Shown here in pieces: positions 3,847-28,675 of a stretch of 35,268 nt of DNA. The stretch lies in NCBI RefSeq assembly GCF_002931235.1, contig NZ_PSTT01000010.1, forward strand, positions 1 to 35,268. The letters run 5' to 3'. The notes beneath the pieces were generated by a model. The model was given only the letters and a program-made list of their open reading frames with translations, had not been told where the DNA came from and did not search any database. Origin of the DNA: Subtercola sp. Z020 (lineage in GTDB: Bacteria; Actinomycetota; Actinomycetes; Actinomycetales; Microbacteriaceae). The translations under genes and the position numbers were made by a program. Numbering within the stretch: the stretch's first letter is position 1; every line of letters begins with the position of its first letter.

Positions 3847-3854
3847 GAGTGACG

Positions 3855-3882
3855 ACACTACACCTCGCAAACGGGGTCTCAA
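3855..3882 (-). promoter_or_regulatory. Candidate promoter of the KimA homologue
   Basis: On the minus strand, TTGAGA (3877-3882) and TAGTGT (3855-3860) are separated by 16 bp, and the GTG start lies 8 nt after the -10. The short gap leaves no room for a c-di-AMP riboswitch. The gene may also be read from the membrane-protein gene upstream. Confidence 0.45.
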
Positions 3883-3900
3883 ACTGCCGGGGAACCGCTT

Positions 3901-5061
3901 TTATTCCCCTTCTGCAAGCATCTTTCGTGCCGATTCCGGGCGGGCGGATTCTGCGGGCGCAGAGTCGAAGTATCGAGCGCGCACCTCGAGTGCCCGGCCG
4001 GCGTCGTCGAAGAGGGGGTCGTAGAAGGCCGACCGGTACGCGGCCCCCGTCGTCGCCGAGATGAGGAAGTTCAGTGACGAGACGCAACTGAGCAGCGCCG
4101 CGGTCTTCACGAGGGCGGCGTCGAGGGGGAGGGGGATGCCGGCCGGGGCGAACGGCTCGCGGTCCGGCCCGAGCCAGGCGTCAAGCAGGCTGTCGCTGAA
4201 GGCGACCCGGCCAAGCACGGTGAGAAAGGCGCAGACCAGAACAGAGAAGATCGCGACCTGGAAGCCCTGTGCGAGCACGAGCACCGTGGTCACGTTCGCG
4301 TGCTCCCGCCGGCTGAGGGGTGGGCCGGGGTTCTCGAGCCCCACGGTCTCTGCGCGGGTCACCGGCACGATGAAGAACAACCCCAGCAGGGCGAACAGGG
4401 CGACGACGCCCCCGAGGCGGGCCGGCGACATCCCGTTCGCCACCTCCCAGAGGGTGCGCGAGAAGAACGAGACGACCACGACGAGCATCAGCAGCGGAAG
4501 GGCGCGACTCGTCAGCTGGCCGATCGCCCCGAGTTGGCGAACCGCCGTGCGGAGCGACCAGCTGACGAGCGAACCGACACCGCACCAGGTCGCGAGCAGC
4601 GCCAGGGCGACGTACGCACCGTTGGTCGCTGCTTCGGGGAATGGATGCCCGGCCAGCCACGGCGCGGCGGCGACGTAGAACGCGATGAGCACGAGGCCCG
4701 AAACGGTCATCGCTCGCGGCGACGTGCGGATCCACTCCGCCGACAGCAGGAACGCGGCCGCCGGGGCCCCCACGAGCACCACCAGCGCGAGACCGGTCAG
4801 CACGAGGAGGGCGAGGCCGGCCGCGGGGGAGTCGGCGTCGAGGCTGAACGTGGTGCGGTCGAGCATCCCGCGCCCGAGGTCGGCGGCGGCCAGCAGCGCG
4901 ACGAACGGCGCCGTGCGTGCCACGAGCAGCGCGCCCCGCCGTCGCCGCCGCACGAAGAACGGCAGCCCCCGAGCCCGCAGCCACGCCTCCGCCTCCGCCT
5001 CGGTTGCGCCCGGCTCGAGCGTGACCCGATCGCTGCTTCCGGTAGTTCTTCCCTCCTTCAT
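3901..5061 (-). CDS. Integral membrane protein of unknown function
   Basis: A 386-residue protein with a hydrophilic head of about 40 residues that ends in a basic cluster (RRRRRG), then about eight TM helices. Among the recognisable features are SWSLRTAVRQLGAIG near the middle and a C-terminal YRSAFYDPLFDDAGRALEVR segment. That ending resembles a broad group of uncharacterised actinobacterial integral membrane proteins, from memory and without a search. No transporter signature, nucleotide-binding motif or catalytic motif is visible. It lies 54 bp upstream of the KimA gene on the same strand and may share a transcript with it. ATG 5061 is preferred because the -10 element GATAAT lies 10 nt upstream; ATG 5073 is in frame but overlaps that element. 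No function is assigned. Confidence 0.75.
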   Translation of the reverse strand: MKEGRTTGSSDRVTLEPGATEAEAEAWLRARGLPFFVRRRRRGALLVARTAPFVALLAAADLGRGMLDRTTFSLDADSPAAGLALLVLTGLALVVLVGAPAAAFLLSAEWIRTSPRAMTVSGLVLIAFYVAAAPWLAGHPFPEAATNGAYVALALLATWCGVGSLVSWSLRTAVRQLGAIGQLTSRALPLLMLVVVVSFFSRTLWEVANGMSPARLGGVVALFALLGLFFIVPVTRAETVGLENPGPPLSRREHANVTTVLVLAQGFQVAIFSVLVCAFLTVLGRVAFSDSLLDAWLGPDREPFAPAGIPLPLDAALVKTAALLSCVSSLNFLISATTGAAYRSAFYDPLFDDAGRALEVRARYFDSAPAESARPESARKMLAEGE

Positions 5062-5070
5062 CCATAGTGA

Positions 5071-5077
5071 CATTATC
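5071..5077. promoter_or_regulatory. Overlapping divergent -10 elements
   Basis: One short AT-rich patch gives CATTAT on the plus strand (5071-5076) and GATAAT on the minus strand (5072-5077). The two can serve the surface-protein gene and the membrane-protein gene respectively. Overlap would make the two promoters compete for polymerase. Confidence 0.4.
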
Positions 5078-5099
5078 TCATTTATGGTAGGAATAGGTC

Positions 5100-6341
5100 A
5101 TGATTCCTGCTTACCTTTCTCATCCCGCGGTCGCTCGACGACCTGCCCGCCTCGCCGCCGTGCGTGGGCTGGCGCTCTCAACGGCACTCGCCTCGACGCT
5201 GCTCGCCTCGGCCGTGTTCGCCTGCCCGGCCCAGGCGGCCGATGCTTCACCCGCCCGTTCGGGTCCCGTTCACACGGCTCCTGTTCGCCAAGTGGTACCG
5301 ACGATCTCTGACAAGACCCTTCCGACGGCGGTGATCGGAGTCGAGTACGGACAGTTCATCCCTGCATCCGGTGATGGTCCGTTGCAGTTCACCACCACCG
5401 ATCCCCTTCCGCCGGGGATCACACTCTTCACAACAGGGTCACTTGTCGGGACGCCGACCGCGACCACCATGACGTCCTACACATTCACTGTGACGGTCGG
5501 TGGTAAAGGCGGGATAGCCAGTGCGAAGATCACTGTTCCTGTTCGAGCAGCGGAGCTCCCGAACATCGATCCGACCACACTCCCGGCTGCGTCAGTCGGA
5601 ACCTTCTTCTTTCAGAAGGTCGTTGCAACCGGCGATGGGCCCCTTACCTTCGAAACGCTCGACCCGTTGCCGCCGGGACTTGAAATTCGTTCGGATGGAC
5701 TGATATTCGGAACGCCGACGATGACGACGATGAGCAGCTACGCCGTACGCGTTCGCGTTGTGAGCTCCCTCGTCAACGCGAATGCCACCGCGATCATCAC
5801 CATTCCGATCGCCAACCCGTCGAGTGTGCCCGTGATCACCTCCGGCGCGTCTGGTGCCGCCGTTGTGAGAACGCCATACTCGTTCCAGCTTGCCGCCTCG
5901 GGAGTTCCGGTTCCGACATTCGCTGTGGTCGGGGCGCTGCCCGCGTGGCTGAAGCTCGATGCGGGTACCGGAGTGCTCTCTGGAACTCCGACCGAGATCG
6001 GTCGGAGTTCCTTCTCCGTCGTGGCCACCAACGCTGCCGGTACCTCGGCTGCGGTGCCGCTGACGATCGTGGTGGTGGCCGCTCCCATCGATCCCACCAC
6101 GCCTTCCACCGGTGGCGGAGCTGGCGGGGGCGGAGCGATCACGTCGACCGGCGGTGCGACCACGCCCACGGGCGGCTCCTCCCTGCCAGGCGGGACTGCT
6201 GGCATCCACGGTTCCCACCTCGCAGAGACCGGTCTCGGCGAGACGTCGTGGGTGAGTGCCGTGTTCGCCTCGCTGCTCCTCGGGGGCGGCATCGTGCTCG
6301 GGCCGATCATGCGGCGCAGGCGCCGCCGGGCAGCCGCCTGA
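5100..6341 (+). CDS. Cell-wall-anchored surface protein with Ig-like repeats and an LAETG motif
   Basis: A 413-residue secreted protein. Residues 1 to about 49 form a signal peptide with a basic head, a hydrophobic ALSTALASTLLASAVFA core and AQAAD near the cleavage site. Three putative Ig (He_PIG-like) domains follow at about 65-150, 155-240 and 243-330. The first two share a GDGPL-x-F-x-T-x-DPLPPG motif and a GTPT-x-TTM-x-SY motif; the third has LPAWLKLD and GVLSGTPTEIG. A Gly/Thr/Pro wall-spanning segment leads to LAETG (374-378), a TM helix and a poly-Arg tail, which is a sortase sorting signal of the LAxTG type used by class E sortases. Base composition is visibly less GC-rich than in its neighbours. 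AGGA sits just before ATG 5100. Ligand and role are unknown; adhesion is a guess. The gene is divergent from the membrane-protein gene. Confidence 0.85.
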   Translation: MIPAYLSHPAVARRPARLAAVRGLALSTALASTLLASAVFACPAQAADASPARSGPVHTAPVRQVVPTISDKTLPTAVIGVEYGQFIPASGDGPLQFTTTDPLPPGITLFTTGSLVGTPTATTMTSYTFTVTVGGKGGIASAKITVPVRAAELPNIDPTTLPAASVGTFFFQKVVATGDGPLTFETLDPLPPGLEIRSDGLIFGTPTMTTMSSYAVRVRVVSSLVNANATAIITIPIANPSSVPVITSGASGAAVVRTPYSFQLAASGVPVPTFAVVGALPAWLKLDAGTGVLSGTPTEIGRSSFSVVATNAAGTSAAVPLTIVVVAAPIDPTTPSTGGGAGGGGAITSTGGATTPTGGSSLPGGTAGIHGSHLAETGLGETSWVSAVFASLLLGGGIVLGPIMRRRRRRAAA

Positions 6342-14888: not shown

Positions 14889-14909
14889 ATTGTCAAGGAG
14901 CTTAACAAT
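14889..14909. promoter_or_regulatory. Operator of the divergent MarR-MMPL pair
   Basis: ATTGTCAAG (14889-14897) and CTTAACAAT (14901-14909) form 9-bp arms with one mismatch around GAG. It lies between the two divergent genes, over a TTGACA-like box on the minus strand. Its size and symmetry fit a MarR dimer. Confidence 0.65.
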
Positions 14910-14937
14910 CAGGCAAGTGAGAGAAACGGACGACAGC

Positions 14938-17016
14938 ATGCGACACCTCACCGACTTCGTGAGTGGCAGGTTCACCGCGTGGATCGTGCTGGCCCTCGCT
15001 ATCGTGGCGGCGGGCATCCTGTTCGCCACCGCGCCCGCCAGCAGCGGAGCCGTCGCCCCCACCGCCGGTCTGCCTGCCAGCACCCAGTCGGCACAGGTCG
15101 CCGAGCTCGAGAAGCAGCTGCCGAATGCGGATGCCGGCTTCGCCCTCATCGTCTTCGACCGCGGCGGCGATGCGCTGACCGACGCCGACAAGACGGCCAT
15201 CCAGCAGCGCGCCGACGCGCTCGCCCCCGAGTCGCTCAGCGGTCAGCTGCCGCCCGCCCAGTTCTCTGACGATGGCACCACCGCGCTGCTCCCTCTTCCG
15301 CTGCCGGCAGCGACCGACTCCGACGCGCAGGGCGAACGCGTCGACAGCCTGCGCGAGACCGTGAAAGCCGATCTGCCCGACGGGCTGAACGCCTACCTGA
15401 CCGGGCCCGAGGGCTTCCAGGCCGATGTGGCCGCCGCGTTCCAGGGCGCCGACTTCCGCCTGCTGCTCGTGACCGTCATCGTGGTCGCCGTTCTGCTGCT
15501 CATCACCTACCGCAGCCCGTGGCTCTGGCTGGTTCCGCTCGCGGTCATCGGCCTCGCCGACGGGCTCGCCGGCATCATCGTCAAGCAGCTGGCCGAGGTC
15601 TTCGGCTTCACGATCGACGCATCCATCTCGGGCATCCTGTCGGTTCTGGTCTTCGGCGCGGGCACCAACTACGCGCTGCTGCTGATCGCCCGCTACCGGG
15701 AGGAACTGCGCCGAAACGAGAACCGGCGGGCAGCCATGTCCCGGGCGCTCCGCGGGGCGGGCCCGGCGGTGATCGCGAGCGGCAGCACCGTGACGCTCAG
15801 CCTGCTGACCCTGCTGTTCGCCGAACTCGAGGGCAACCGGGCTCTCGGCTTCGCCTGCGCCATCGGCATCGTGACCGCGATGGTGTTCGCCCTGCTCGTT
15901 CTGCCGGCGGCACTCGTCATCTTCGGTCGCGGCCTGTTCTGGCCGTTCGTTCCGGCCTTCGGCTCGGAGTCGCCGACCGAGCGCGGGTTCTGGTCGAAGC
16001 TCGGCCACGGCGTCTCTCGTCGGCCCGTGGTCGTGGTGGTCGGCAGCGTGGTGGTGCTCGGCGCGCTCGCCCTCGGCGCCCTGAACCTCAGCGTGGGCCT
16101 CTCACAGGTGCAGCAGTTCCGCGGCAACCCCGAGTCGGCCCAGGGCCAGGCGATCATCGACGAGGCCTTTCCCGCGGGCCAGAGCGCGCAGACGATCGTG
16201 ATCGCTCCGACGGATGCCGTGCAGAACGCGGCGTCGATCGCGACGAACACGGCCGGGGTCGCCTCCGTCGCGCAGGGTGCGTCGGCCGGTGACATCACGC
16301 AGCTGAGCCTGACTCTGGATGCCGAACCGCAGTCCGACGCCGCCTTCGAGACGATCGCGAACCTGCGGGCCGCCTACGCCGACGCCGGCAGCAGCGCGCT
16401 GGTGGGCGGAACGGATGCGACCGCTCTCGACGAGAAGACCGCCTCGGCGCACGACGAGGGCCTCATCATCCCGATCATCCTCGGCATCGTCTTCGTCGTG
16501 CTGCTCGTTCTGCTTCGTGCGCTCGTCGCACCCGTTCTGCTGATCATCACCGTGGTCGCCAGCTACTTCGCGAGCCTGGGCGCGGCGAACCTCGTGTTCA
16601 CGACTGTCTTCGCCATCCCCGCCTTCGACACGAACGTCGTGCTGTTCAGCTTTCTGTTCCTCGTGGCGCTGGGGGTGGACTACAACATCTTCCTGGTCAC
16701 CCGGGCCCGGGAGGAGGCCGGCCTCATCGGCACCCGGCCGGGCATGATCCACGCGCTGTCGGCGACCGGCGGGGTGATCACGAGCGCGGGCATCCTGCTC
16801 GCCGCGGTCTTCGCCGTGCTGAGCGTGCTGCCGATCATCGCGCTCACGCAGATCGGCGTCATCGTCGGCATCGGAGTGCTGCTCGACACCCTGCTGGTCA
16901 GAACCGTGCTGGTGCCGGCGCTCGTCTTCGTCACGGGCGATCGCTTCTGGCTGCCGTCGAAGCCCGCGAAGTCCGCCCCGGTCGGCCCGGCGAAGACCGT
17001 CTTCGACGCCCCGTAG
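14938..17016 (+). CDS. MMPL family transporter (YdfJ-like)
   Basis: A 692-residue RND-superfamily membrane protein driven by the proton gradient, predicted to move lipids or drugs outward. TM1 is at about 12-32 (WIVLALAIVAAGILFA), followed by an extracellular domain to about 170. TM2-6 run at about 175-355, a second extracellular domain at about 390-505, and TM7-12 to about 675. The TM4 motif reads FGAGTNY (N244), where many MMPL proteins have Asp-Tyr; the TM10 motif LGVDY keeps Asp (D581). Both are followed by the usual RxREE sequence. ATG 14938 begins the conserved MRHLTDF segment, although the upstream purine run is weak. It is divergent from the MarR gene with an operator between, and only 18 bp precede the RND gene, so the two are probably co-transcribed. 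The substrate is not readable. Confidence 0.92.
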   Translation: MRHLTDFVSGRFTAWIVLALAIVAAGILFATAPASSGAVAPTAGLPASTQSAQVAELEKQLPNADAGFALIVFDRGGDALTDADKTAIQQRADALAPESLSGQLPPAQFSDDGTTALLPLPLPAATDSDAQGERVDSLRETVKADLPDGLNAYLTGPEGFQADVAAAFQGADFRLLLVTVIVVAVLLLITYRSPWLWLVPLAVIGLADGLAGIIVKQLAEVFGFTIDASISGILSVLVFGAGTNYALLLIARYREELRRNENRRAAMSRALRGAGPAVIASGSTVTLSLLTLLFAELEGNRALGFACAIGIVTAMVFALLVLPAALVIFGRGLFWPFVPAFGSESPTERGFWSKLGHGVSRRPVVVVVGSVVVLGALALGALNLSVGLSQVQQFRGNPESAQGQAIIDEAFPAGQSAQTIVIAPTDAVQNAASIATNTAGVASVAQGASAGDITQLSLTLDAEPQSDAAFETIANLRAAYADAGSSALVGGTDATALDEKTASAHDEGLIIPIILGIVFVVLLVLLRALVAPVLLIITVVASYFASLGAANLVFTTVFAIPAFDTNVVLFSFLFLVALGVDYNIFLVTRAREEAGLIGTRPGMIHALSATGGVITSAGILLAAVFAVLSVLPIIALTQIGVIVGIGVLLDTLLVRTVLVPALVFVTGDRFWLPSKPAKSAPVGPAKTVFDAP

Positions 17017-17022
17017 AAGTGC

Positions 17023-17037
17023 GACACTGTAGCCATG
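17023..17037 (+). promoter_or_regulatory. Possible internal leaderless start of the RND gene
   Basis: GACACT (17023-17028) is followed by six bases and then ATG 17035. It resembles other leaderless starts in this window and could give the RND gene a transcript of its own within the operon. No good -35 is seen. Confidence 0.3.
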
Positions 17038-20000
17038 CATCTCCTCGCCGTGCTGAGCATGAAGAACCGGGCCCTGATCGCCCTCGTGACGATCGTGGTC
17101 GCCGTCTTCGGCGGGCTCGCGCTGACGAGCCTCAAGCAGGAGCTCATTCCGTCGATCGACTTTCCGCAGCTGGTCGTGCTGACGAACTATCCGGGAGCCG
17201 CGCCAGAGGTCGTGAACGACGACGTCTCGACGCCGATCGAGCAGGCGGTGCAGGGCGTCGAGGGCATCGACACCACCTCCGCGACATCCAGTACCAACCT
17301 CTCGATCGTGAACGCGACGTTCGTCTACGGCACGAATCTCGCCACCGCCGAACAGAAGATCACCCAGGCGATCAACCGCATCAAGTCGGCCCTGCCCGAA
17401 GACCTCGACCCGCAGGTGCTGAGCGGCGGGATCGCCGACTTCCCCGTCATCCAGATCGCTGTCACCGGCGGTGACACCACGGCGCTCGCCGCCTCGCTGA
17501 ACGCCTCGGCATTGACCGACATCGAGCAGGTCGACGGGGTGCGCGCCGCCCAGCTCGTCGGCGACCCGGGCCAGCGGGTCACCATCACGCCCGACAGCGC
17601 GAAGCTCGCCCAGGCCGGTCTGACAGAGGCCGCAGTGAAGACCGCCGTGACGTCGAACGGCACGCTGATTCCGGCTGGCTCCCTGACCGAGAACGGGTCG
17701 ACCCTGTCGGTGCAGGCCGGTTCGAAGCTCGGGTCGGTGAACGACATCCAGGCGCTGCCGTTGCCCGCGCAGAAAGACGGGGGCGGTGTCTACACGGTGG
17801 GGGATGTCGCGACCGTCGCGCTCGTCGACAACCCGGTGACCTCCATCTCCCGGGTGAACGGGCAGCCGGCGCTGACCATCGCGGTCACGAAGCTGCCCGC
17901 CGCGAACACCGTGGATGTGTCGAAGAGCGTACGCGATCTGCTGCCGCAGCTGCAGTCGGCGGTGCCCGGTGCGACGTTCACGGTCGTGTTCGACCAGGCC
18001 CCGTTCATCCAGCAGTCGATCGAGTCGCTCGCGACCGAGGGCCTGCTCGGGCTGTTCTTCGCGGTGGTCATCATTCTCGTGTTCCTGCTGTCTGTGCGTT
18101 CGACGCTGGTGACGGCGATCTCGATCCCGACGTCGGTGCTCATCACCTTCATCGGGTTGCAGGCGGCGAACTACACGCTCAACATCCTGACGCTCGGTGC
18201 CCTGACGATCGCGATCGGCCGGGTGGTCGACGACTCGATCGTGGTGATCGAGAACATCAAGCGGCACCTCTCCCAGGCGGAGGCCGGCGGCCCGATCAAC
18301 GGGGCCACGCGGGCGGAGGTCATCGTCGAGGCGGTGCGCGAAGTCGCCACGGCCATCACGGCGTCGACCATCACGACGGTCGCGGTCTTCCTGCCGATCT
18401 CCTTCGTGCAGGGAACGACCGGGGAGCTGTTCCGTCCGTTCGCCCTCACGGTGACGATCGCACTGGTCGCCTCGCTGCTTGTGGCGCTCACGATCGTTCC
18501 GGTGCTGGCGTACTGGTTCCTCGGCAGCAGGCACCGCACGGCACGATCCGTTCGCGACACCGTGGCGGTCGCGGGCGCGGCGCTCCCGGGTGCCGGCCGG
18601 CGTGCCCGCCGCCAGGCGGCCGTGATCGACGACGAGGCGCCGACCGCCCTGCAGCGCCGGTACCTGCCGATCATCACCTGGACCCTGCAGCACTCGTTCG
18701 TGACGTTGCTCATCGCCGTCGTCATCCTCGTGGGCACCGGCGGCCTCGCCGTCTTCATGAAGACGAACTTCCTCGGCTCGAGCGGCCAGAACACGCTCAC
18801 CGTGACGCAGACCGTGCCGGTCGGGGCGAGCCTGGCGGTTCAGGATGCCGCGGCCCAGAAGGTCGAGGCGGCGCTGCAGGGTATCGCGGGCATCCAGACC
18901 GTGCAGGCCTCCATCGGCTCCAGCGGCAGCAGCCTCCGCGATGCGTTCGTCGGCGGTGGCGGCAACGCGATCACCTACTCGATCACCACCGACGCCGATG
19001 CCGACCAGGATGCGCTGCAGAGCACGGTGCGCACCGATCTCGCGGCGATTCCCGACGCCGGGCAGATCTCGGTCGCGGCGTCGGCCGGGTTCGGTACGTC
19101 GAACGACATCGCCGTCGACATCACGGCGACGAACCAGGCCGACCTGCAGACCGCTGCCGCCGCGGTGCTCGCCTCTGTGCAGGGCCTCGATGGCATCACC
19201 CAGAGCTCGTCGAACCTCGCCGCGACGAGGCCGTACATCGCGGTCGCCGTCGACCGCGCCAAGGCGGTGCAGGCCGGTCTCAGCGAGGTGGCCGTCGGCT
19301 CCCTCGTCGCCAACGCGATGCAGCCGCAGACGGTCGGGTCGATCACGATCGACAGCACGCAGTACACGATCTACATCGCGAGCGACACGACGCCCACGAC
19401 GCAGGCCGAGCTCGCGGCCCTGCAGATTCCGACGGCCACCGGCCCGGTGCGGCTCGACTCGCTGGCCACGGTCTCGCAGGTCGCCGGCCCCGACACGATC
19501 ACCACGAGCAAGGGTCTGCGTACTGCGGCCGTGACGGTCACTCCGTCGAGCGACAACCTCGGCTCGGCCAGTTCGGAGGTGCAGAAGGCGGTCGACGCCG
19601 TGCAGCTGCCCGCCGGTGCGACGGCCGAGCTCGGCGGCGCCACCTCCGACCAGGGCGAGGCCTTCCGACAGCTCTTCATCGCGCTGCTCGCCGCCATCCT
19701 GATCGTCTACGTGGTGATGGTCGCCACCTTCAAGAGCCTGCTGCAGCCGCTTCTGCTGCTGGTCTCTGTGCCGTTCGCCGCCACAGGGGCCATCGCCCTG
19801 CAGGTGGTGTCGGGCATCCCGCTCGGCGTGCCGTCGATCATCGGTGTGCTGATGCTCATCGGTATCGTCGTGACCAACGCGATCGTGCTGGTCGACCTGG
19901 TGAACCAGTACAGGGGGAGGGGCCTGCTCGTTCGGGAGGCGCTCATCCAGGGCTCGTCGCGGCGCCTCCGCCCCATTCTCATGACGGCGCTCGCGACGAT

Positions 20001-20214
20001 CTTCGCCCTGCTGCCCATGGCCATCGGGCTGACCGGCCACGGCGGGTTCATCTCGCAGCCGCTCGCCATCGTGGTGATCGGCGGGCTGGTCTCGTCGACG
20101 GTGCTGACGCTGATCGTGCTGCCCGTCCTCTACAACCTCGTGATGGGCTGGCTCGAACGCCGGCACCTCCGGCGCGAGCAGCGCTTCGAAGCTGGGAGAC
20201 AGCCGACGGACTGA
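17035..20214 (+). CDS. RND efflux permease, HAE1/SwrC-like
   Basis: A 1059-residue proton-driven exporter of the AcrB fold. TM1 (about 11-30) is followed by the LKQELIPSIDFPQLVVLTNYPGAAPEVV segment typical of the hydrophobe/amphiphile efflux group. The TM4 proton-relay motif AIGRVVDDSIVVIENI carries the paired Asp residues near 401-402. The TM10 motif IGIVVTNAIVLVD has Thr at the place where AcrB has Lys, as in Gram-positive relatives. Two large extracellular porter domains flank the two TM bundles, and a charged loop near 500-540 joins the halves. The length is normal. It follows the MMPL gene by 18 bp under probable MarR control. No membrane-fusion or outer-membrane partner is encoded nearby, as is usual in Gram-positive bacteria. 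Surfactant or drug export is a family-based guess. Confidence 0.93.
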   Translation: MHLLAVLSMKNRALIALVTIVVAVFGGLALTSLKQELIPSIDFPQLVVLTNYPGAAPEVVNDDVSTPIEQAVQGVEGIDTTSATSSTNLSIVNATFVYGTNLATAEQKITQAINRIKSALPEDLDPQVLSGGIADFPVIQIAVTGGDTTALAASLNASALTDIEQVDGVRAAQLVGDPGQRVTITPDSAKLAQAGLTEAAVKTAVTSNGTLIPAGSLTENGSTLSVQAGSKLGSVNDIQALPLPAQKDGGGVYTVGDVATVALVDNPVTSISRVNGQPALTIAVTKLPAANTVDVSKSVRDLLPQLQSAVPGATFTVVFDQAPFIQQSIESLATEGLLGLFFAVVIILVFLLSVRSTLVTAISIPTSVLITFIGLQAANYTLNILTLGALTIAIGRVVDDSIVVIENIKRHLSQAEAGGPINGATRAEVIVEAVREVATAITASTITTVAVFLPISFVQGTTGELFRPFALTVTIALVASLLVALTIVPVLAYWFLGSRHRTARSVRDTVAVAGAALPGAGRRARRQAAVIDDEAPTALQRRYLPIITWTLQHSFVTLLIAVVILVGTGGLAVFMKTNFLGSSGQNTLTVTQTVPVGASLAVQDAAAQKVEAALQGIAGIQTVQASIGSSGSSLRDAFVGGGGNAITYSITTDADADQDALQSTVRTDLAAIPDAGQISVAASAGFGTSNDIAVDITATNQADLQTAAAAVLASVQGLDGITQSSSNLAATRPYIAVAVDRAKAVQAGLSEVAVGSLVANAMQPQTVGSITIDSTQYTIYIASDTTPTTQAELAALQIPTATGPVRLDSLATVSQVAGPDTITTSKGLRTAAVTVTPSSDNLGSASSEVQKAVDAVQLPAGATAELGGATSDQGEAFRQLFIALLAAILIVYVVMVATFKSLLQPLLLLVSVPFAATGAIALQVVSGIPLGVPSIIGVLMLIGIVVTNAIVLVDLVNQYRGRGLLVREALIQGSSRRLRPILMTALATIFALLPMAIGLTGHGGFISQPLAIVVIGGLVSSTVLTLIVLPVLYNLVMGWLERRHLRREQRFEAGRQPTD

Positions 20215-20229
20215 CCGATCGTGCAGAAC

Positions 20230-20245
20230 CTGACCGAGCGGTCAG
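20230..20245. promoter_or_regulatory. TetR autoregulatory operator
   Basis: CTGACCGAGCGGTCAG is a perfect palindrome with 7-bp arms around AG. It covers the expected -35 region of the TetR gene, one base before the -10 TAAAGT (20247-20252). The GTG start follows seven bases after the -10. Binding here would shut off the whole operon. Confidence 0.7.
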
Positions 20246-20259
20246 GTAAAGTCGATCGA

Positions 20260-20868
20260 GTGAAACCGCCCGCCACCCTCCGCTCAGACCGGCCCGACCC
20301 GGCCGCCGAGCTGAAGGCGGTCGCCCTGCAACTCTTTGTCGAGACGAGCTACGCCGGTGCCTCGCTGCAGCAGATCGCCGACGCGGCGGGCTACTCGAAG
20401 TCGAGTGTGCTCTACCACTTCGCGTCGAAGGAAGCACTGCTCGAGGCCGCCCTGCGCCCGGCCGTCGCGCGACTCGGCGAGTTGCTCGACGACTCGGTCA
20501 GCCGCATCTCGGATGCCCGGCTGCGCACCGCGTTCGTCGACGAGTTCATCGACTTCCTGCTGGTCTACGGGCTCGAGGCCCACATCGTGATCAACCAGGG
20601 CCAGTCGCTCGCGGGCATCCCGATCATCGATGAGGCCCGCGAATTCATCGTCCGCTTGGGCGACGCCTTCAAGAGCGGGCTGTCGACGACCGAACAGCGC
20701 ATCCGCCTCGGCGTGGCGCTGGCCGGCGCCGCCTACGTCGTCGCCACGGGCGTCTCACTCCAGGGCACCATCGACACCGAGCCCATCGACGACCTGCGCC
20801 GCTCGCTGGTCGGCGTCGTCACCGAACTCCTCCTCCCGCTCGCAGCCGCACCGACCGTCACTCTCTAG
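20260..20868 (+). CDS. TetR family transcriptional regulator
   Basis: A 202-residue regulator. The N-terminal helix-turn-helix spans about 15-60 (AAELKAVALQLFVETSYAGASLQQIADAAGYSKSSVLYHFASKEALLEAAL), which is a standard TetR DNA-binding domain. The rest is an all-helical ligand-binding and dimer domain without a recognisable ligand signature. GTG 20260 is chosen over GTG 20221 because the promoter and the operator lie between the two, and because the -10 is seven bases upstream (leaderless). It precedes the MMPL gene by 11 bp and the YhgE/Pip gene overlaps that one, so the three genes appear to be one autoregulated operon. Induction by a membrane-active compound is inferred from the targets. 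Confidence 0.92.
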   Translation: MKPPATLRSDRPDPAAELKAVALQLFVETSYAGASLQQIADAAGYSKSSVLYHFASKEALLEAALRPAVARLGELLDDSVSRISDARLRTAFVDEFIDFLLVYGLEAHIVINQGQSLAGIPIIDEAREFIVRLGDAFKSGLSTTEQRIRLGVALAGAAYVVATGVSLQGTIDTEPIDDLRRSLVGVVTELLLPLAAAPTVTL

Positions 20869-20879
20869 GGGTCAGCACC

Positions 20880-23800
20880 ATGGCAACACTGCTCTACCGC
20901 ATCGGCCGTTTCTCCTTCCGCCACCCCTGGCGTGTGATCGTGGCCTGGTTCCTGCTGCTCGGCGCTATCCTCGGCGGGGGCGTCGCACTCGGCGGCAGCT
21001 ACGACGAGGGCTTCTCCATCCCGGGCACGGAGTCGCAGCAGACGCTCGACAAGCTCGACGCGGTGTTCCCCGCAGTGGCCGGGTCGAGCGCGCAGGTGGT
21101 CTTCCAGGTGCCCGAGGGGCAGACCGTGAACGACGCTGCCGACCAGGCGGCCATCACGGCGGTGACGGATGCCATCGCCAAGATCCCGCACGTCAGCTCG
21201 GTGGTGACGCCCTACTCGGAGTACGCCACCAATGCGATCTCGGCTGACAAGACGATCGCCTTCGCCTCCGTGTCGTTCGATGGGCCGACCATCGACATCC
21301 CGGCCTCGACGATCGATGCCGTGCAGGCGACCCGGTCGCTCGCGGCCGACGCAGGCATCCGTGTCGAGTTCGGCGGCCAGGTCTTTCAGGACAACACGGT
21401 GGGAATCTCTCCCTCTGAGGGCCTCGGCGTGCTGTTCGCCGCCGTCGTGCTCTTCATCACCTTCGGCTCGCTGCTCGCCGCGGGCCTCCCGCTGCTCTCG
21501 GCGATCATCGGTGTGGGTATCTCCATCGGCGCCGTCACGCTGGCGACGGCGTTCGCCTCGATCTCGAGCACCGCTCCGCTGCTCGCCGTCATGATCGGGC
21601 TCGCGGTCGGCATCGACTACGCCCTGTTCATTCTGTCGAGGCACAGAACGCAGCTCGCCCAGGGGCAGGAGCCAGAGGAGTCCGCCGCCCAGGCCGTCGC
21701 CACGGCGGGAAGCGCGGTCGTCTTCGCGGGAACCACCGTCATCATCGCCCTGCTCGGCCTGCTCGTCGTCGGCATCCCGTTCCTCAGCGTGATGGGTGTG
21801 GCCGCCGCCTTCGCCGTGTTCATCTCGGTCTGCATCGCGGCGACACTGCTTCCCGCCATCATGGGGCTCGCGAAGAACCGGCTGCGGCCCAAGCGCGGTT
21901 CGCGGGTCGAGCGGCGGGCGCTCGCAGCTCTCGTGCACGACGAGGTCGAGCCCTCCGCTGCGGTCGTGGCTCCGGATGCCGCACTGCACCCGCACGCCGC
22001 CCCCGTCGTCGACGTGCCCGACACCGCCCCGGTTCACGCCGGTGCCCACGCCGCCGGCGCCGCCCCGGGAACCAAGCCGGTCTCGCGCTCGATGGGCGCC
22101 CGCTGGGTCGGGCTCGTGATGAAGGCGCCGATCGTGTTCATCATCGCCGTCTGCGGGATCGTCGGAGTCTCGGCAATTCCCGCCTTCAGTCTCGACCTGA
22201 ACCTGCCGACCTCCGGCCAGCAGCCCGCCGACTCGACGAACCGCCAGGCCTACGACCTCGTCGCGAAGGGCTTCGGCCCGGGCTACAACGGCCCGCTGAT
22301 CGTCGTCGCCGACATCACGCAGTCCACCGACATCCAGGGCATCCTGACGAAGATCGGTGACGAACTGAAGACTGTTCCGGGTGTCGCGGCCGTGGGCCAG
22401 GGGGTGCCCGACCCGACCGTCGACACGGCGATCTTCCAGGTGATTCCGACCACCGCCCCCGATTCGCCCGAGACCAAGACGCTCGTGCACGACCTGCGCG
22501 ACCTGAACGGCAAGATCACCGACGACCTGGGAACGCCGATCGCCGTGACCGGCCAGACCGCCGTCGCCGTCGACATCTCCGATCTGCTGACCGCTGCGCT
22601 GCTGCCGTTCGGCATTCTGGTCGTCGGGCTCTCGATCGTGCTTCTGGCGATGGTGTTCCGGTCGATCGCCGTGCCGATCAAGGCCGCTGTCGGCTTTCTC
22701 TTCTCGGTCGGTGCGAGCTTCGGCGTCACGGTCGCCGTCTTCCAGTGGGGCTGGGGCGCCGATCTGCTGAACATCGCGACCTCGGGGCCGCTGATCAGCT
22801 TCCTGCCCATTCTGCTGATGGCCATTCTGTTCGGGCTCGCGATGGACTATGAGGTGTTCCTGGTGTCGGGGATGCGCGAAGAGTTCGTCAAGACGAAGGA
22901 TGCCCGCCGGGCGGTGCGCGTCGGCTTCGTGCAGGGCGCCCGCGTGGTGACCGCTGCGGCACTCATCATGTTCTTCGTCTTCTTCGCGTTCGTGCCGGAG
23001 GGTACGGGGGCCATCAAGCAGATCGCCCTCGCGCTCGCGGTGGGAGTCTTCGTCGACGCGTTCCTGGTGCGCATGACGCTGGTGCCCGCCGTGATGACCC
23101 TGCTCGGCAGTGCGGCGTGGAAGCTGCCTGCCGGCCTCGCGCGCATCCTGCCGAACGTCGACGTGGAGGGGGAGGGGCTGCGCGAGCACATCTCCAGCGC
23201 GGCCTGGGCCTCGACCCACACCGACGACCTCATCACCGCAGAGCACCTCGTCATCAGCGGAGTCGAGAACTCGATCGACCTCTCCCTCCCCGCCCGCACG
23301 GCGCTGGTGCTCGTCGGCGACACCACCTCGCGCCGGCTCGTCGGCGCCACACTCGCCGGGCGACTCGTTCCGGAGTCGGGGGAGCTGCAGGTGCTCGGCC
23401 TGACGGTTCCCTCGGAGTCGGGTGCGCTCAGTCGCCGGGTGACCCTCGTCGACCTCGGCTCGTTCCGGCCCGACCTCGAGACGGCCGTGGGAGCGGCATT
23501 CGCCGAACGCCTGCGGTTCGCCCGCCCGCTCTTCCGCCGCGGTGCGTTCCGCGCCCAGGTCCACACCCTGGTCGATGACGTCAACCGAGCGCTCGCGAGC
23601 GTGCCGGGCGAGCTGCCGATCGGCGCGGAGACGGCCCTCGGGTCACTGAGCCCGGTGGCGAGCGCGCTCGTGCTCGCCGCGCTGGGTCTGGCCGACGGCG
23701 GGTCGATGCTTGTGCTCGACACCGGCGACGCCGGTGCGCCGTTCGAGAGCGCCGCGCAGTTCGCCGACGCTCTGTCGGCCCTCGTGCCGGCCGAGACCAC

Positions 23801-23948
23801 GCTCGTGCTCGGTGTTCCGGCCGGGGCAGAGCGGGCATCCGGTTCCCCCTCTCCATCGACAGCGTCGACCGCACCCTCCGCCGGCCGCCGCGGCCTTCTC
23901 ACCCTCGAACTCTCTGAACCGTCACGTCACGAAGGATCCCTCCGATGA
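20880..23948 (+). CDS. MMPL transporter fused to a degenerate ABC-ATPase-like domain
   Basis: A 1022-residue protein. Residues 1 to about 770 are a full MMPL/RND transporter: TM1 at about 18-38, an extracellular domain, TM2-6, an Ala/Pro/His-rich cytosolic linker (about 345-405), then the second half. Both proton-relay pairs are intact (D246 in GIDY, D656 in AMDY). Residues 781-1022 run in the order of an ABC nucleotide-binding domain: ITAEHLVI, LPARTALVLVGD, SGELQVLGL, RRVTLVDLGSF, a LGSLSPVASALVLAALGL helix at the signature position, and SMLVLD. However, the Walker A site reads GDTTSRRL (813-820) without GK[ST], the LSGGQ signature is absent, and DTGD replaces the Asp-Glu of Walker B. It is therefore probably catalytically dead. 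ATG 20880 follows GGGGTC, 11 bp after the TetR gene. The stop overlaps the YhgE/Pip start (ATGA). Confidence 0.9.
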   Translation: MATLLYRIGRFSFRHPWRVIVAWFLLLGAILGGGVALGGSYDEGFSIPGTESQQTLDKLDAVFPAVAGSSAQVVFQVPEGQTVNDAADQAAITAVTDAIAKIPHVSSVVTPYSEYATNAISADKTIAFASVSFDGPTIDIPASTIDAVQATRSLAADAGIRVEFGGQVFQDNTVGISPSEGLGVLFAAVVLFITFGSLLAAGLPLLSAIIGVGISIGAVTLATAFASISSTAPLLAVMIGLAVGIDYALFILSRHRTQLAQGQEPEESAAQAVATAGSAVVFAGTTVIIALLGLLVVGIPFLSVMGVAAAFAVFISVCIAATLLPAIMGLAKNRLRPKRGSRVERRALAALVHDEVEPSAAVVAPDAALHPHAAPVVDVPDTAPVHAGAHAAGAAPGTKPVSRSMGARWVGLVMKAPIVFIIAVCGIVGVSAIPAFSLDLNLPTSGQQPADSTNRQAYDLVAKGFGPGYNGPLIVVADITQSTDIQGILTKIGDELKTVPGVAAVGQGVPDPTVDTAIFQVIPTTAPDSPETKTLVHDLRDLNGKITDDLGTPIAVTGQTAVAVDISDLLTAALLPFGILVVGLSIVLLAMVFRSIAVPIKAAVGFLFSVGASFGVTVAVFQWGWGADLLNIATSGPLISFLPILLMAILFGLAMDYEVFLVSGMREEFVKTKDARRAVRVGFVQGARVVTAAALIMFFVFFAFVPEGTGAIKQIALALAVGVFVDAFLVRMTLVPAVMTLLGSAAWKLPAGLARILPNVDVEGEGLREHISSAAWASTHTDDLITAEHLVISGVENSIDLSLPARTALVLVGDTTSRRLVGATLAGRLVPESGELQVLGLTVPSESGALSRRVTLVDLGSFRPDLETAVGAAFAERLRFARPLFRRGAFRAQVHTLVDDVNRALASVPGELPIGAETALGSLSPVASALVLAALGLADGGSMLVLDTGDAGAPFESAAQFADALSALVPAETTLVLGVPAGAERASGSPSPSTASTAPSAGRRGLLTLELSEPSRHEGSLR

Positions 23949-26002
23949 GCATCCAGAACACCGCCCGCCCCTCCGGCGACCAGGCGGCGCCGGTCGACCC
24001 CGCCGCAGAGGCCCGCGTTCGCTCGCACCGCCGACGCCGCAGCTGGCTGTTCGCGATCGCCGCCATCGCGGTGATCGCCATCCCGCTCGCCGCCAACGCG
24101 CTGTTCTCCGGTGCGTTCTCGAACGTCGCCGACAACCTCGGCAGGGTGCCGGCCGCTGTCGTGAACAACGACAAGCTGATCACCACGACCGCCGCCGACG
24201 GAACGCAGTCGACGGTGTACGCCGGCCGCGGACTCGTCACAGAGCTCACGGGGCCGAACCAGACAGGGTTCGACTGGAACGTCACCAACAGCGATGATGC
24301 CGCGAAGGGCCTCGCAGACGGCACGTACTACGCGGTGCTCACGATCCCCGAGAACTTCTCCGCCCAGATCAACACGCTCGGCACCCCCGCTCCCGCACAG
24401 GGCTCGGTCTCGATCGTGACCGACGACGCGCACGGCTACCTCTCCGGTGTGGTCGCCAGCACCGTGGGCACGGCTCTGAAGGCCGGCTTTGGCGAGACCA
24501 TCACGGCGCAGGTGCTCACCGGCGTGTACTCCGGGCTCGGAACGGTCGGCACGCAGCTCTCGACCGCCGCGAACGGCGCGGGCCAGCTCGCCTCGGGCGC
24601 ATCCGGCCTCACCGACGGGCTCAACCAGCTCGCGACAGGGGCCTCCTCTGCGGCGTCGGGAGCAGGGTCCCTGAGTTCGGGCATCGACACCTACACCGGC
24701 GGCGTGGACTCGCTCGCCGACGGCGTCTCGACGCTCGATTCCCAGGCGGGCAGCCTCTCGCGCCTCTCGGGCGCGGTGAGCGACTACACCGACGGCGTCT
24801 CGACGCTGGCCGGCGGCTTCTCCCAGTTGCAGTCGGGCTTCGTGGCCGCGGTGAACAGCAACCCGAACCTGCCCGACGCGACCAAGCAGCAGCTGCTCGG
24901 CAGTTACGCGCAACTCTCGGGTGGACTGAACCAGGCGGCGGCCGGCGGTTCGACGCTGTCGTCGCAGACGGCGTCGGGTCTGGATGCCCTGCAGGGCGGC
25001 ATCGCACAGCTCTCGTCGGGGGCATCCCAGCTCTCGGGCGGTTCTGCACAGCTGCGCTCGGGCGCCTCTGATCTCTCGGGCGGCCTCACGACCCTCGCGT
25101 CGGGCGTACAGCAGTCGGCGGCAGGGGCCGCTCAGCTCACCAGCGGAGCGACCACGCTGCAGTCGGGCCTCCAGACGGGGGCGGATGCCCTGACGAAGTC
25201 GGCGGCGACCGACCCGGCCGCGTCGGCGGCTGTCGCGGCGAACCCCATCGCCGTCGACGTGTCGACCCAGAACAGCGCCGGCGGCATCGGCAGCGTCATC
25301 GCGGTGCTCGTGGTGCCCGCCGGCCTGTGGTTCGGGGCGCTCGCGATCTTCCTGTTCCTCCGGCCCATCCGGGCGTCGCTGCTGGCGAGCTCGACGCCGA
25401 CCGGTCGCCTCGCCGTGCGTCTGTTCGGGCGCGCCTCAGTGTTCGCCGCGCTCCAGGCGATCGTCGTCATCGCCTACCTGCAGTTCAGCCTCAACCCGGC
25501 GTGGAGCTCGCTTCCCGCGCTGCTCGGCTTCGGGCTGCTGGTGGCGCTGGCGTTCACGGCCTTCCACCAGTTTCTGACGGCCGCCTTCGGGCGGGTCGGG
25601 GCCGTGATCTCGCTCATCCTGTTCGCTGTGCAGATCGCGACGACCGCCGGAATCTACCCGGTCGAGATCCTGGCAGGGCCGTTCCAGTTCATCAACGCGA
25701 TCTCGCCGCTGGCATATGCCGTCTCGGGCATACAGGGCATTCTCACCGGAGGGGCCGCAGGGCCCGTCTGGACGAGCGTCGGCGTTCTGGCGGTGCTGCT
25801 CCTGCTGAGCCTGGTGTTCGCCACGGCGGCACTGGCGCGGCGGCGACGCCCGGAGCGTACCGGCTGGTTGCTCGTGGGTGCCCCGGAGCGCAGCACCGGG
25901 GTGCGCCGTGCCGCGGCGGTCGCGGCGGTCTCTGCGCCGGTGGCGAGTGCGTCTGCGGGTGGGGCGTCTGTTTCTGCGGTTGCCGCGCCGTCGGGTGCGT
26001 GA
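23945..26002 (+). CDS. YhgE/Pip family membrane protein
   Basis: A 685-residue protein of the YhgE/Pip (phage-infection-protein-like) group. A basic head (HRRRRSW) leads to TM1 at about 34-55, then an extracellular domain with VPAAVVNNDK and YYAVLTIPENFSA, both family hallmarks. Residues about 205-430 are a long Ala/Gly/Ser-rich repeat with recurring heptads such as QLASGAS, GLTDGL and QLSSGAS, likely an extended coiled coil. Five TM helices from about 440 to 640 resemble an ABC-2-type permease, including FAVQIATTAGIYPVEI. A low-complexity Ala/Ser/Val tail ends the protein. Its ATG overlaps the preceding stop (ATGA), so translation is coupled. Relatives serve as phage-infection receptors or in type VII-linked secretion; the role here is unknown, but it is probably a partner of the MMPL protein. 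Confidence 0.92.
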   Translation: MSIQNTARPSGDQAAPVDPAAEARVRSHRRRRSWLFAIAAIAVIAIPLAANALFSGAFSNVADNLGRVPAAVVNNDKLITTTAADGTQSTVYAGRGLVTELTGPNQTGFDWNVTNSDDAAKGLADGTYYAVLTIPENFSAQINTLGTPAPAQGSVSIVTDDAHGYLSGVVASTVGTALKAGFGETITAQVLTGVYSGLGTVGTQLSTAANGAGQLASGASGLTDGLNQLATGASSAASGAGSLSSGIDTYTGGVDSLADGVSTLDSQAGSLSRLSGAVSDYTDGVSTLAGGFSQLQSGFVAAVNSNPNLPDATKQQLLGSYAQLSGGLNQAAAGGSTLSSQTASGLDALQGGIAQLSSGASQLSGGSAQLRSGASDLSGGLTTLASGVQQSAAGAAQLTSGATTLQSGLQTGADALTKSAATDPAASAAVAANPIAVDVSTQNSAGGIGSVIAVLVVPAGLWFGALAIFLFLRPIRASLLASSTPTGRLAVRLFGRASVFAALQAIVVIAYLQFSLNPAWSSLPALLGFGLLVALAFTAFHQFLTAAFGRVGAVISLILFAVQIATTAGIYPVEILAGPFQFINAISPLAYAVSGIQGILTGGAAGPVWTSVGVLAVLLLLSLVFATAALARRRRPERTGWLLVGAPERSTGVRRAAAVAAVSAPVASASAGGASVSAVAAPSGA

Positions 26003-26362: not shown

Positions 26363-28675
26363 ATGCCCGATTACTCCAAGAAGTCCGCCACCGGCGGCAA
26401 CAAGTTCGCACCCAAGGGCGCAGCGGGTGCCCGCAGCGCCGGCCACCGCGGTTCCCGGAGCGCCGACGCCGGCGCGCCCAAGAAGGCCCGCTGGAACGCC
26501 GACGAACGCGCCGCCCGAGGCGCCGCCCCCACCAGCCGGGGCGAGCGGCCCAACTGGGAGCCGCGGGGCGCTGCTCCGTCGCGCGAGTCCAGCAGCTACA
26601 GCGACCGCAACGGTCGCCCGTCGTACGGCGACCGCAACGCGTCCGGCGCAGGCCGCAGCGAGCGCCCGTCGTACGGTGACCGGCCCGACCGCGGTGCGCG
26701 CACAGAGCGTCCGAGCTATGGCGACCGTGGAGCATCCGCTGGCCGTTCCTCGTACGGTGACCGCCCGGAGCGCACCGAGCGCCCGTCGTACGGCGACCGC
26801 AACTCCTCCGGCGCTGGTCGCACGGAGCGCCCGTCATACGGTGACCGTGGAGCATCCACGGGCCGCCCGTCGTACGGCGACCGCAACGCGTCCGGCGCGG
26901 GCCGCACCGAGCGCCCGAGCTACGGTGACCGTGGAGCATCCGCTGGCCGTTCCTCGTACGGTGACCGCCCCGACCGCGGTGCCCGCACCGAGCGTCCGAG
27001 CTACGGAGACCGGGGAGCATCCACCGGCCGTCCCTCGTACGGCGACCGCACCGAGCGCACCGAGCGCCCTTCCTACGGCGACCGCCCCGCTCGCACGGAG
27101 CGCCCCTCCTACGGCGACCGTCCCGACCGTGGTGCGCGCACCGAGCGCCCCAGCTACGGCGACCGCCTCGCCCGCACCGAGCGCCCGTCGTACGGCGACC
27201 GCAGTGAGCGCCCGGCCCGCACCGAGCGCCCGAGCTACACCGAGCGCCCCGGCCGCCCGGAGCGGCCCACCTACGGCGACCGCCCCGAGCGTGGCGACCG
27301 GAGCGACCGCCCCGCGCGCTCGTTCGACGACCGCCGCGACTCCAACACCGACCGCGCCGCCCGTGGCAGCGACTTCTACCCGAAGCGCGAGAACACCAGC
27401 TACAGCGACGGCCAGGGCACGGCAGCAGCCGGCCGCTTCGGCGCCGGCGACGACGTCGTGCTCGAACGCCTCGAAGCCGAGGTGACCACCGCCAGCGACG
27501 TCGTCGACAAGACGTTCGGCGACCTCGGACTCGGCGACAACATCACCCGCCAGCTGGCGTCGATGGGTGCTCCGAGCCCCTTCCCGATCCAGGCCGCGAC
27601 CATCCCCGACGTTCTCGCCGGCAAGGACGTTCTCGGCCGGGGCAAGACCGGCTCGGGCAAGACCATCGCGTTCGGCGCCCCGCTCGTCGAGCGCCTGATG
27701 GAGAACGACGGAGCCAAGGGCCGCAAGCCCGGCCGCCTGCCCCGTGCGCTCATCCTGGCCCCGACCCGCGAACTCGCGATGCAGATCGACCGCACCGTGC
27801 AGCCCATCGCCCGCTCGGTCGGCCTGTTCACCACCCCGATCTTCGGCGGTGTGCCGCAGTTCAAGCAGGTGAGTGCCCTGCAGCGTGGCACCGACATCAT
27901 CATCGCGACCCCCGGTCGCCTCGAAGACCTCATCGAGCAGGGTCGCCTCGACATCTCGCAGGTCAAGCTCGTCGTTCTCGACGAGGCCGACCACATGTGC
28001 GACCTGGGCTTCCTCGAGCCGGTGCAGCGCATCCTGCGCCAGACCGCCCCGAAGAGCCAGAAGCTGCTCTTCTCGGCCACCCTCGACAAGGGTGTCGCCA
28101 AGCTCGTCAACGAGTTCCTCGTGGAGCCGGCCGTGCACGAGGTCGCCGGTGAAGACCAGGCCTCCTCGACGATCGACCACCGCGTTCTGCTCATCGAGCA
28201 GCGCGACAAGCGTGCGATCATCGAGCAGCTCGCGAGCGGCGAGGGCAAGACGCTGATCTTCGCCCGCACCCGTGCCTTCGCCGAGGAGCTGGCCGACCAG
28301 CTCGACGACGCCGGCATTCCGTCCACGTCGCTGCACGGCGACCTCAACCAGTCCCGCCGCACGCGCAACCTCCAGCTGCTCACCAGCGGCCGGGTCAACG
28401 TGCTGGTCGCGACCGATGTGGCGGCACGCGGCATCCACGTCGACGACATCAACCTGGTCATCCAGGCCGATGCTCCCGACGAGTACAAGACCTACCTGCA
28501 CCGTTCGGGCCGCACCGGCCGCGCGGGCAAGCAGGGCACGGTCGTGACGCTCATCTCGAAGTCGCGTCGTCGTCGCATGGACGAGCTGCTCGGCCGCGCC
28601 GACATCGAGGCGACGATGGTTCCGGCAGCCCCCGGCGACCGCCTCATCGACGACCTGCAGAGCGCCGGCATCTGA
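26363..28675 (+). CDS. DEAD-box ATP-dependent RNA helicase with N-terminal YGDR repeats
   Basis: A 770-residue protein that unwinds RNA duplexes, probably in ribosome assembly or cold adaptation. Residues 1 to about 370 are disordered and extremely rich in Arg, Ser, Tyr, Gly and Asp; 85-307 contain 16 copies of YGDR plus one YTER. The helicase core follows: Q motif FPIQAATIP, Walker A GKTGSGKT (about 426-433), PTRELAMQI, TPGR, DEAD at 540-543, SAT, LIFARTRAFAEEL, ATDVAARGIHVDD and HRSGRTGRAG. The core alone is close to the normal RhlE-type length and the protein stops shortly after it. Relatives usually carry such disordered tails at the C-terminus, so the N-terminal position is unusual. ATG 26363 has GGAAAG upstream. 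Two hairpins follow the stop. Confidence 0.95.
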   Translation: MPDYSKKSATGGNKFAPKGAAGARSAGHRGSRSADAGAPKKARWNADERAARGAAPTSRGERPNWEPRGAAPSRESSSYSDRNGRPSYGDRNASGAGRSERPSYGDRPDRGARTERPSYGDRGASAGRSSYGDRPERTERPSYGDRNSSGAGRTERPSYGDRGASTGRPSYGDRNASGAGRTERPSYGDRGASAGRSSYGDRPDRGARTERPSYGDRGASTGRPSYGDRTERTERPSYGDRPARTERPSYGDRPDRGARTERPSYGDRLARTERPSYGDRSERPARTERPSYTERPGRPERPTYGDRPERGDRSDRPARSFDDRRDSNTDRAARGSDFYPKRENTSYSDGQGTAAAGRFGAGDDVVLERLEAEVTTASDVVDKTFGDLGLGDNITRQLASMGAPSPFPIQAATIPDVLAGKDVLGRGKTGSGKTIAFGAPLVERLMENDGAKGRKPGRLPRALILAPTRELAMQIDRTVQPIARSVGLFTTPIFGGVPQFKQVSALQRGTDIIIATPGRLEDLIEQGRLDISQVKLVVLDEADHMCDLGFLEPVQRILRQTAPKSQKLLFSATLDKGVAKLVNEFLVEPAVHEVAGEDQASSTIDHRVLLIEQRDKRAIIEQLASGEGKTLIFARTRAFAEELADQLDDAGIPSTSLHGDLNQSRRTRNLQLLTSGRVNVLVATDVAARGIHVDDINLVIQADAPDEYKTYLHRSGRTGRAGKQGTVVTLISKSRRRRMDELLGRADIEATMVPAAPGDRLIDDLQSAGI
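26615..27283 (+). repeat. In-frame repeats coding YGDR units
   Basis: Sixteen units around the residues RPSYGDR lie in about 670 bp. At the DNA level a 44-bp stretch at 26723-26766 recurs exactly at 26927-26970, 204 bp (68 codons) later, which points to recent duplication. Copy number may vary between strains, always in frame. Confidence 0.8.

Follow-up and report, generated by a model that had tools for sequence, protein, structure and literature searches.

RND pumps and ABC transporters are regarded as distinct superfamilies, each with an energy source of its own. In MmpL3, an exporter of the RND superfamily, Asp-Tyr pairs in the membrane part are thought to carry protons. The YhgE/Pip proteins (PIP family, TCDB 9.B.74), for their part, are known from phage-receptor work and have no established transport role. 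In this work, we describe a locus of Subtercola sp. Z020 (Microbacteriaceae) that brings the three together. The DNA analysed, hereafter the window, is a stretch of 35,268 nucleotides (contig NZ_PSTT01000010.1, positions 1 to 35,268 of the forward strand), in which an MMPL transporter carries an additional C-terminal domain, here called the tail, and is followed immediately by a YhgE/Pip gene. The tail derives from ABC nucleotide-binding domains, and what is new here is that it belongs to YhgE's own ATPase family; it also looks catalytically dead. The explanation that we favour, with moderate confidence, is that this dead domain came from the cognate ATPase of YhgE, was fused to the MMPL and docks the pump onto an ABC-2-like YhgE. 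The window protein resembles the MmpL3/MMPL exporters in its core homology and in both Asp-Tyr pairs and differs from them in its ABC-type ending, for which we found no published MMPL counterpart. An initial annotation, made from the sequence alone, knew of no described system with this architecture, and neither an MMPL-ABC fusion nor an MMPL-YhgE machine is described among the open-licence PMC papers searched.

The tail starts at a DVEGE motif (residues 761-765). The initial annotation had placed an ABC-like region at residues 781-1022 on the basis of the strings SGELQVLGL, RRVTLVDLGSF, SMLVLD and GDTTSRRL; all four are present in the protein and the region is part of a conserved domain, but that domain begins earlier, at residue 761. 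Untailed MMPLs end 16 to 57 residues past the DVEGE point in 19 of 20 cases and 156 residues past it in the other (L202), whose Gly-rich extension has no ATPase match and was counted as untailed. Single tails reveal little of their ancestry. The window tail had no ABC match in Pfam and a best NCBIfam match of only E 0.14, and no ABC match above noise was obtained when 18 tails were scanned one by one against Pfam or when a single tail was compared with the PDB by phmmer. The profile used here aligned 18 of the 25 fused tails recovered by a tail-only search (L009, L011, L024, L025 and L027-L029 were left out), while larger alignments drawn from 80 related loci comprised 65 loci plus the window in one case and 55 in another. 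Against PDB sequences, the 18-sequence profile retrieved ABC ATPases, the best being CbiO (E 4e-6, profile positions 24-230); it matched 126 sequences at E ≤10, and the 60 best listed were ABC-type ATPases, ABC transporters or the ABC-fold relatives UvrA and RNase L inhibitor. The AlphaFold model of the tail (66 alignment rows) reached a pLDDT of 89.4 and a pTM of 0.87, and Foldseek returned 1089 matches for it at E ≤0.001 (best E 4.3e-11); among the 50 listed, six titles were uninformative and every other one was ABC-type. Fold and sequence relationship agree, and the structural expectation of the initial annotation, ABC nucleotide-binding domains with the catalytic residues gone, was borne out.

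The relatives of the tail point to its source. Besides the fusions, the tail-only search found three stand-alone proteins with an intact Walker A (L021, L022 and L026), and hhalign related the tail profile to the stand-alone ATPase profile with a probability of 99.6 and E 1.6e-23. Matches to the stand-alone profile occurred in at least 62 of 296 class-level and at least 47 of 248 order-level genomes (both at E 1e-12), and in at least 13 of 296 phylum-level genomes (E 1e-15), the three samples overlapping. These family-wide scans scored no more than 8 to 13 first-look candidates in each genome, so that a missed genome is no proof of absence. A looser count of 148 out of 199 genomes at E 1e-6 includes ordinary ABC ATPases and truncated tails and is unusable as a prevalence of the full tail. 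YhgE adjoined the ATPase in all 30 class-level loci retained and in 26 of 28 order-level loci, the misses being L165 (a contig edge, at the same place as L022) and L168; relatives bearing the Walker A loop thus occur beside YhgE/Pip genes in other actinomycetes. Among 20 larger stretches of 9 to 16 kb around such ATPases, only five yielded an MMPL gene, each time in fused form, so that the pair of ATPase and YhgE looks like the core, with the MMPL as an addition.

Stand-alone ATPase and YhgE together look like a two-part ABC exporter of the kind with ABC-2 (ABCG/ABCA-like) membrane domains. The ATPases differ from those of such exporters in several respects: among 33 relatives compared, all with a G[KR]T loop, SGG[QE] was found in none, the place of the catalytic Glu is held by Asp in 28, Asn in 3, Gln in 1 and Ser in 1, and the Walker A residue is Lys in 10 (5 fused, 5 stand-alone) and Arg in 23, all of these stand-alone. 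In the order-level set of 28 ATPases, Lys was found in 22 and Arg in 6. Counted over the stand-alone relatives compared (n = 28, including L021, L022 and L026), the replacement of the Walker A Lys by Arg affects 23. The window ATPase departs further from ABC-2 exporters, being dead and tied to an RND pump.

The absence of Walker A, of the LSGGQ signature and of the Walker B Glu, noticed earlier in the window protein, proved general. Motifs were counted over 81 tails, that is, the window and its 80 relatives, a set picked by a pattern at the fusion joint and biased to fusions. None of the 81 has a Walker A of the form GxxxxGK[ST], a signature of the form SGG[QE], a Glu at residue 948 (Thr in the window) or a His at the H-loop place, residues 978-980, or anywhere in residues 976-981. 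The Walker A site is now a near-invariant Arg-Arg, with R818 in 81/81 tails and residue 819 being R in 76, K in 4 and V in 1, followed by L, V or I at residue 820 in 80/81; the register of the lost motif is ambiguous by one residue, and which Arg replaces the Lys is left unassigned. Other positions were kept: Asp947 of Walker B in 74/81 tails, and Glu876-Arg877 in the dead tails (E 76/81, R 81/81) as in the G[KR]T-loop relatives (E 32/33, R 31/33). Several tail positions show no variation across 66 to 81 sequences, the ratio of nonsynonymous to synonymous substitution (dN/dS) of the tail lies between 0.06 and 0.34 in 10/10 pairs, which are partly non-independent, and no internal stop was present in any listed match of the tail search. 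Homologues therefore confirm a conserved region rather than a random one.

The tail also goes with YhgE. The tail-only search gave 30 loci, 25 of them MMPL fusions, and YhgE was present in 25/25; of the other five, three were stand-alone ATPases, one of them at a contig edge and the remaining two with YhgE, and two were ordinary ABC ATPases (L023 and L030) that lack YhgE and were excluded from tail counts. In 29 loci picked by similarity of the MMPL core (L194-L222, a set that leaves out the window itself, L193), YhgE was the next gene in 9/9 tailed cases and was found within about 1.4 kb in 0/20 untailed ones; these loci are related, so chance statistics are only indicative, and the tail of L205 was recognised by alignment and not by the hidden Markov model. 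The 80 relatives have YhgE next after the fused MMPL in 80/80 loci. The ATGA overlap of the two genes, reported in the initial annotation and present in the window, recurs as a 4-nt overlap with an ATG or GTG start at the called start of YhgE in 78/80, the remaining two starting 3 nt further on. The window genome holds a second MMPL-YhgE pair (L223, contig C100, ORF 2728-6234), whose MMPL has a tail of 407 residues that the tail family profile does not detect. Fused MMPLs of other genomes of the genus (L027-L029) match the window tail weakly.

Four stages of association could be distinguished among the loci: (a) a stand-alone ATPase with YhgE; (b) an MMPL whose fused ATPase has kept an intact Walker A, with YhgE (L117-L120 and L122, 5/30 class-level loci); (c) an MMPL fused to the dead domain, with YhgE, as in the window and other Microbacteriaceae; and (d) a form without Walker A that has also lost the helical (signature) subdomain, roughly 70 residues long, and still has YhgE next (L194, L195, L203-L206, L024 and L025). 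The MMPLs of stage (b), each followed by YhgE, are possible pumps with two energy sources. In the MMPL tree, from which L194 and L200 were omitted because no full core could be cut, 26/26 fused cores fall on one side of a branch from the unfused ones (support 94/96; 95/95 without the longest outlier), and stages (b) and (d) group together (100/99) beside (c). The ATPase tree groups the stand-alone forms (95/91). Both trees are unrooted. Since the fused cores share one side and (b) with (d) stand beside (c), one fusion followed by two separate losses of catalysis fits, and the ATPase was probably joined to the end of an MMPL once.

The core of the fused protein belongs to the MMPL/RND superfamily. 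It scores 281.4 bits against the Pfam MMPL model (cut-off 20.5), and the solved chains nearest to it are those of MmpL3 (best E 4.9e-56). Both Asp-Tyr pairs, which we take from MmpL3 work to have a proton-relay role, were counted by aligned columns; a stricter text pattern found fewer second pairs. We also considered an orthologue of MmpL3, the trehalose monomycolate exporter, and rejected it, as NF052608 of NCBIfam gave 213.5 bits against a cut-off of 1400.

The initial annotation identified the downstream gene as YhgE/Pip, and both NCBIfam halves of the family, TIGR03061 and TIGR03062, pass on its product (126.0 against a cut-off of 96.15 bits and 134.7 against 102.2). This member differs by being paired with an MMPL that bears a dead relative of YhgE's ATPase. 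Its AlphaFold model starts with a helix, followed by an alpha/beta domain, the long helical stalk and, at the C-terminus, a helical block. Pfam ABC2_membrane_3 matches it at 69.7 bits (cut-off 31.6), while ABC2_membrane stays below its cut-off (18.9 against 26.9). Weak Foldseek matches, each with a probability of 1.00, are ABCH-9C (E 0.015), ABCA4 (E 0.019) and ABCG25 (E 0.036); the top match by E is an MmpL5 complex (1.8e-3), which at a TM-score of 0.14 was not counted as a fold match. YhgE further shows distant N-terminal similarity to EsaA/YueB of type VIIb secretion (TIGR03929, E 8.9e-8), and identity as an EsaA or type VII component was rejected, the score being 31.9 against a cut-off of 122 bits. 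In enterococci, one report describes a second protein with a YhgE/PIP domain as an EsaA orthologue (PMC4999554). A table of another report lists one YhgE/Pip gene and one MMPL gene of Saccharopolyspora hirsuta under neighbouring locus tags, apparently both raised by cholesterol (PMC9782250), a possible hint at joint regulation and perhaps at cargo or inducer.

These data suggest a course of events in which the order of steps, the energy source, the cargo and the topology of the stalk are inferred. An ATPase gene that stands beside yhgE elsewhere, and would there drive YhgE as an ABC-2-type exporter, would have been fused to the end of an MMPL gene, probably in a single event, and the fused ATPase would then have lost ATP catalysis in the Microbacteriaceae. 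What it kept is most likely its hold on YhgE, at the cytoplasmic side of the ABC-2-like membrane domain. As the domain, the Glu-Arg pair and the strict gene order have outlasted the use of ATP, holding MMPL and YhgE together is the simplest job to suppose, and the finding of intact fusions and of stand-alone ATPases beside YhgE, both of which a survey had been expected to look for, strengthens the idea of docking. MMPL and YhgE would then form one fixed complex, with the pump giving energy and the dead ATPase tethering it to YhgE. The proton gradient is the candidate energy source because the MMPL, like all 26 fused cores, keeps both Asp-Tyr pairs; this energy may either also move YhgE or merely serve to hand the cargo to its stalk. 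The stalk should point outwards, and together with the membrane domain it would carry or receive cargo, perhaps a lipid or a hydrophobic compound, across the wall.

Several points weigh against docking as the retained function. Docking of the pseudoATPase onto YhgE, most likely as it appears, is inferred. In the eight stage (d) sequences aligned, the Glu-Arg pair was lost with the helical subdomain and YhgE still follows, so a kept contact cannot rely on that subdomain everywhere. The Foldseek TM-scores on the tail query are moderate (0.46 to 0.56), which marks the domain as altered. Having been selected with the fusion-joint pattern, the 80-locus set cannot gauge how frequent the fusion is. 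On the side of YhgE, the model is only fair (pLDDT 79, pTM 0.53), Foldseek found nothing for it at E ≤0.001, and the 47 matches of a YhgE profile to PDB sequences held no ABC-2 permease, with coiled-coil and chemoreceptor proteins at the top. The earlier claim that its C-terminus resembles an ABC-2 permease is thus upheld by Pfam and weakly by structure and not by the PDB profile search, so that it rests on the first two. The dN/dS of the tail exceeds that of the core in 10/10 pairs, the core values including some untranslated sequence because the ORFs of relatives were taken from stop to stop. One possible reading of the Arg-Arg pair, finally, is a pocket that can still bind a phosphate compound.

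This last point leads to an alternative that we regard as improbable, namely that the tail is a ligand sensor whose Arg-Arg P-loop binds a nucleotide, a phosphate compound or the head group of an anionic lipid and thereby turns the MMPL on or off without holding YhgE. The invariance of R818 and a basic residue 819 in 80/81 tails go beyond what a plain scaffold would need. A sensor, however, leaves unexplained both the membership of the tail in the ATPase family of YhgE and the contrast between tailed and untailed MMPLs in having YhgE as neighbour, and the Arg-Arg motif is not uniformly conserved within stage (d). Somewhat less probable still is a decaying remnant of the fused ATPase, retained merely by being in frame. 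The excess of tail over core dN/dS, the loss of about 70 residues in one lineage and the 407-residue tail of the second pair, unseen by the family profile, would all suit decay, whereas tail dN/dS values that never exceed 0.34, positions invariant across the family and matches free of stops would not.

The degenerate sites of ABC heterodimers are well known, and by analogy the tail might pair with a separate working ABC ATPase encoded elsewhere, leaving one hydrolysing site and a continued use of ATP. We consider this quite unlikely. Weaker ABC-like matches do exist elsewhere in the window genome, but the next relative of the tail there, among all 62 first-look candidates, reaches only E 1.9e-6, and the stand-alone profile gave no match at E 1e-12 among the candidates scored for it, which were only 8 and 10 out of 120. 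Moreover, a composite site needs Walker A and signature from the two partners, and the tail has neither. That the tail might be no more than the usual cytoplasmic C-terminus of MmpL3-like proteins, unrelated to ABC ATPases, is hardly credible even though the core is an MmpL3 relative, since the best stretch of the 992-position MmpL3 model stops at residue 757 (model position 746) and profile and structure searches with the tail return ABC ATPases.

Within the window, the fused gene is the fourth of five genes on the plus strand that lie head to tail (start calls as in the ORF list), separated by 18, 6 and 11 nt and then joined by the ATGA overlap; the coordinates are collected in the table below. 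The conserved cassette consists of the last three, in the order TetR, MMPL-pseudoATPase and YhgE, which recurs in Microbacteriaceae. A same-strand upstream TetR homologue was found in 76/76 relatives whose sequence extends 900 nt or more upstream; the other 4 of the 80 loci are shorter on that side. The AcrB-type neighbour was seen in 6/80 loci, all of Subtercola. With the MMPL and AcrB-type genes (14890-20214) directly before the cassette, the run may carry three RND pumps. Further downstream, a DEAD-box RNA helicase (26363-28675) carries a long series of ERPSYGDR-like repeats in its N-terminal part, the coding DNA there being made up of imperfect repeats 18 to 153 nt in length.

Table. Genes, domains and motifs of the fused MMPL locus, in positions of the window.
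Feature	Positions	Strand	Evidence
MMPL transporter (RND superfamily)	14890-17016	+	Pfam
AcrB-type RND transporter	17035-20214	+	Pfam
TetR-family regulator, first gene of the cassette	20221-20868	+	Pfam TetR_N, E 3.7e-13
Fused MMPL ORF, 1022 aa	20880-23948	+	ORF list
MMPL/RND core, residues 1-760	20880-23159	+	Pfam MMPL, E 1.1e-83, two stretches
Asp246-Tyr247, first membrane Asp-Tyr pair	21615-21620	+	Aligned D and Y in 26/26 fused cores
Asp656-Tyr657, second membrane Asp-Tyr pair	22845-22850	+	Aligned D and Y in 26/26 fused cores
Pseudo-ABC nucleotide-binding domain, residues 761-1022	23160-23945	+	Profile search, AlphaFold, Foldseek, profile-profile match
Degenerate Walker A GDTTSRRL, residues 813-820	23316-23339	+	Aligned columns
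Glu876-Arg877, helix after the Q-loop position	23505-23510	+	Alignment
Walker-B-like strand MLVLDTGD, residues 943-950	23706-23729	+	Asp947 present, no Glu at 948
ATGA overlap, MMPL stop and YhgE start	23945-23948	+	Sequence
YhgE/Pip-family protein, 685 aa	23945-26002	+	TIGR03061 and TIGR03062 above cut-off
YhgE helical heptad-repeat stalk, residues ~184-419	24494-25201	+	TIGR03057 repeats, AlphaFold helices
YhgE ABC-2-like membrane domain, residues ~399-626	25139-25822	+	Pfam PF12698, E 3.2e-19; first part overlaps the stalk

A larger picture may be drawn, which we put forward tentatively: a composite RND-ABC exporter in which a proton-driven MMPL captured an ATP-driven ABC-2-type exporter, YhgE together with its ATPase, by way of a fusion with intact Walker A, in which the use of ATP was then lost, and in which proton energy passes through the dead ATPase to the ABC-2-like protein. 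If this were true, the living lineage with the intact fusion would be a pump that unites the two energy sources in a single chain. The fused gene, with its dead ABC engine kept before the matching ABC-2-like partner in many Microbacteriaceae, offers a natural test of a swap in energy coupling, and for the YhgE/Pip proteins it suggests both a probable family of ATPase partners and a probable partner pump.

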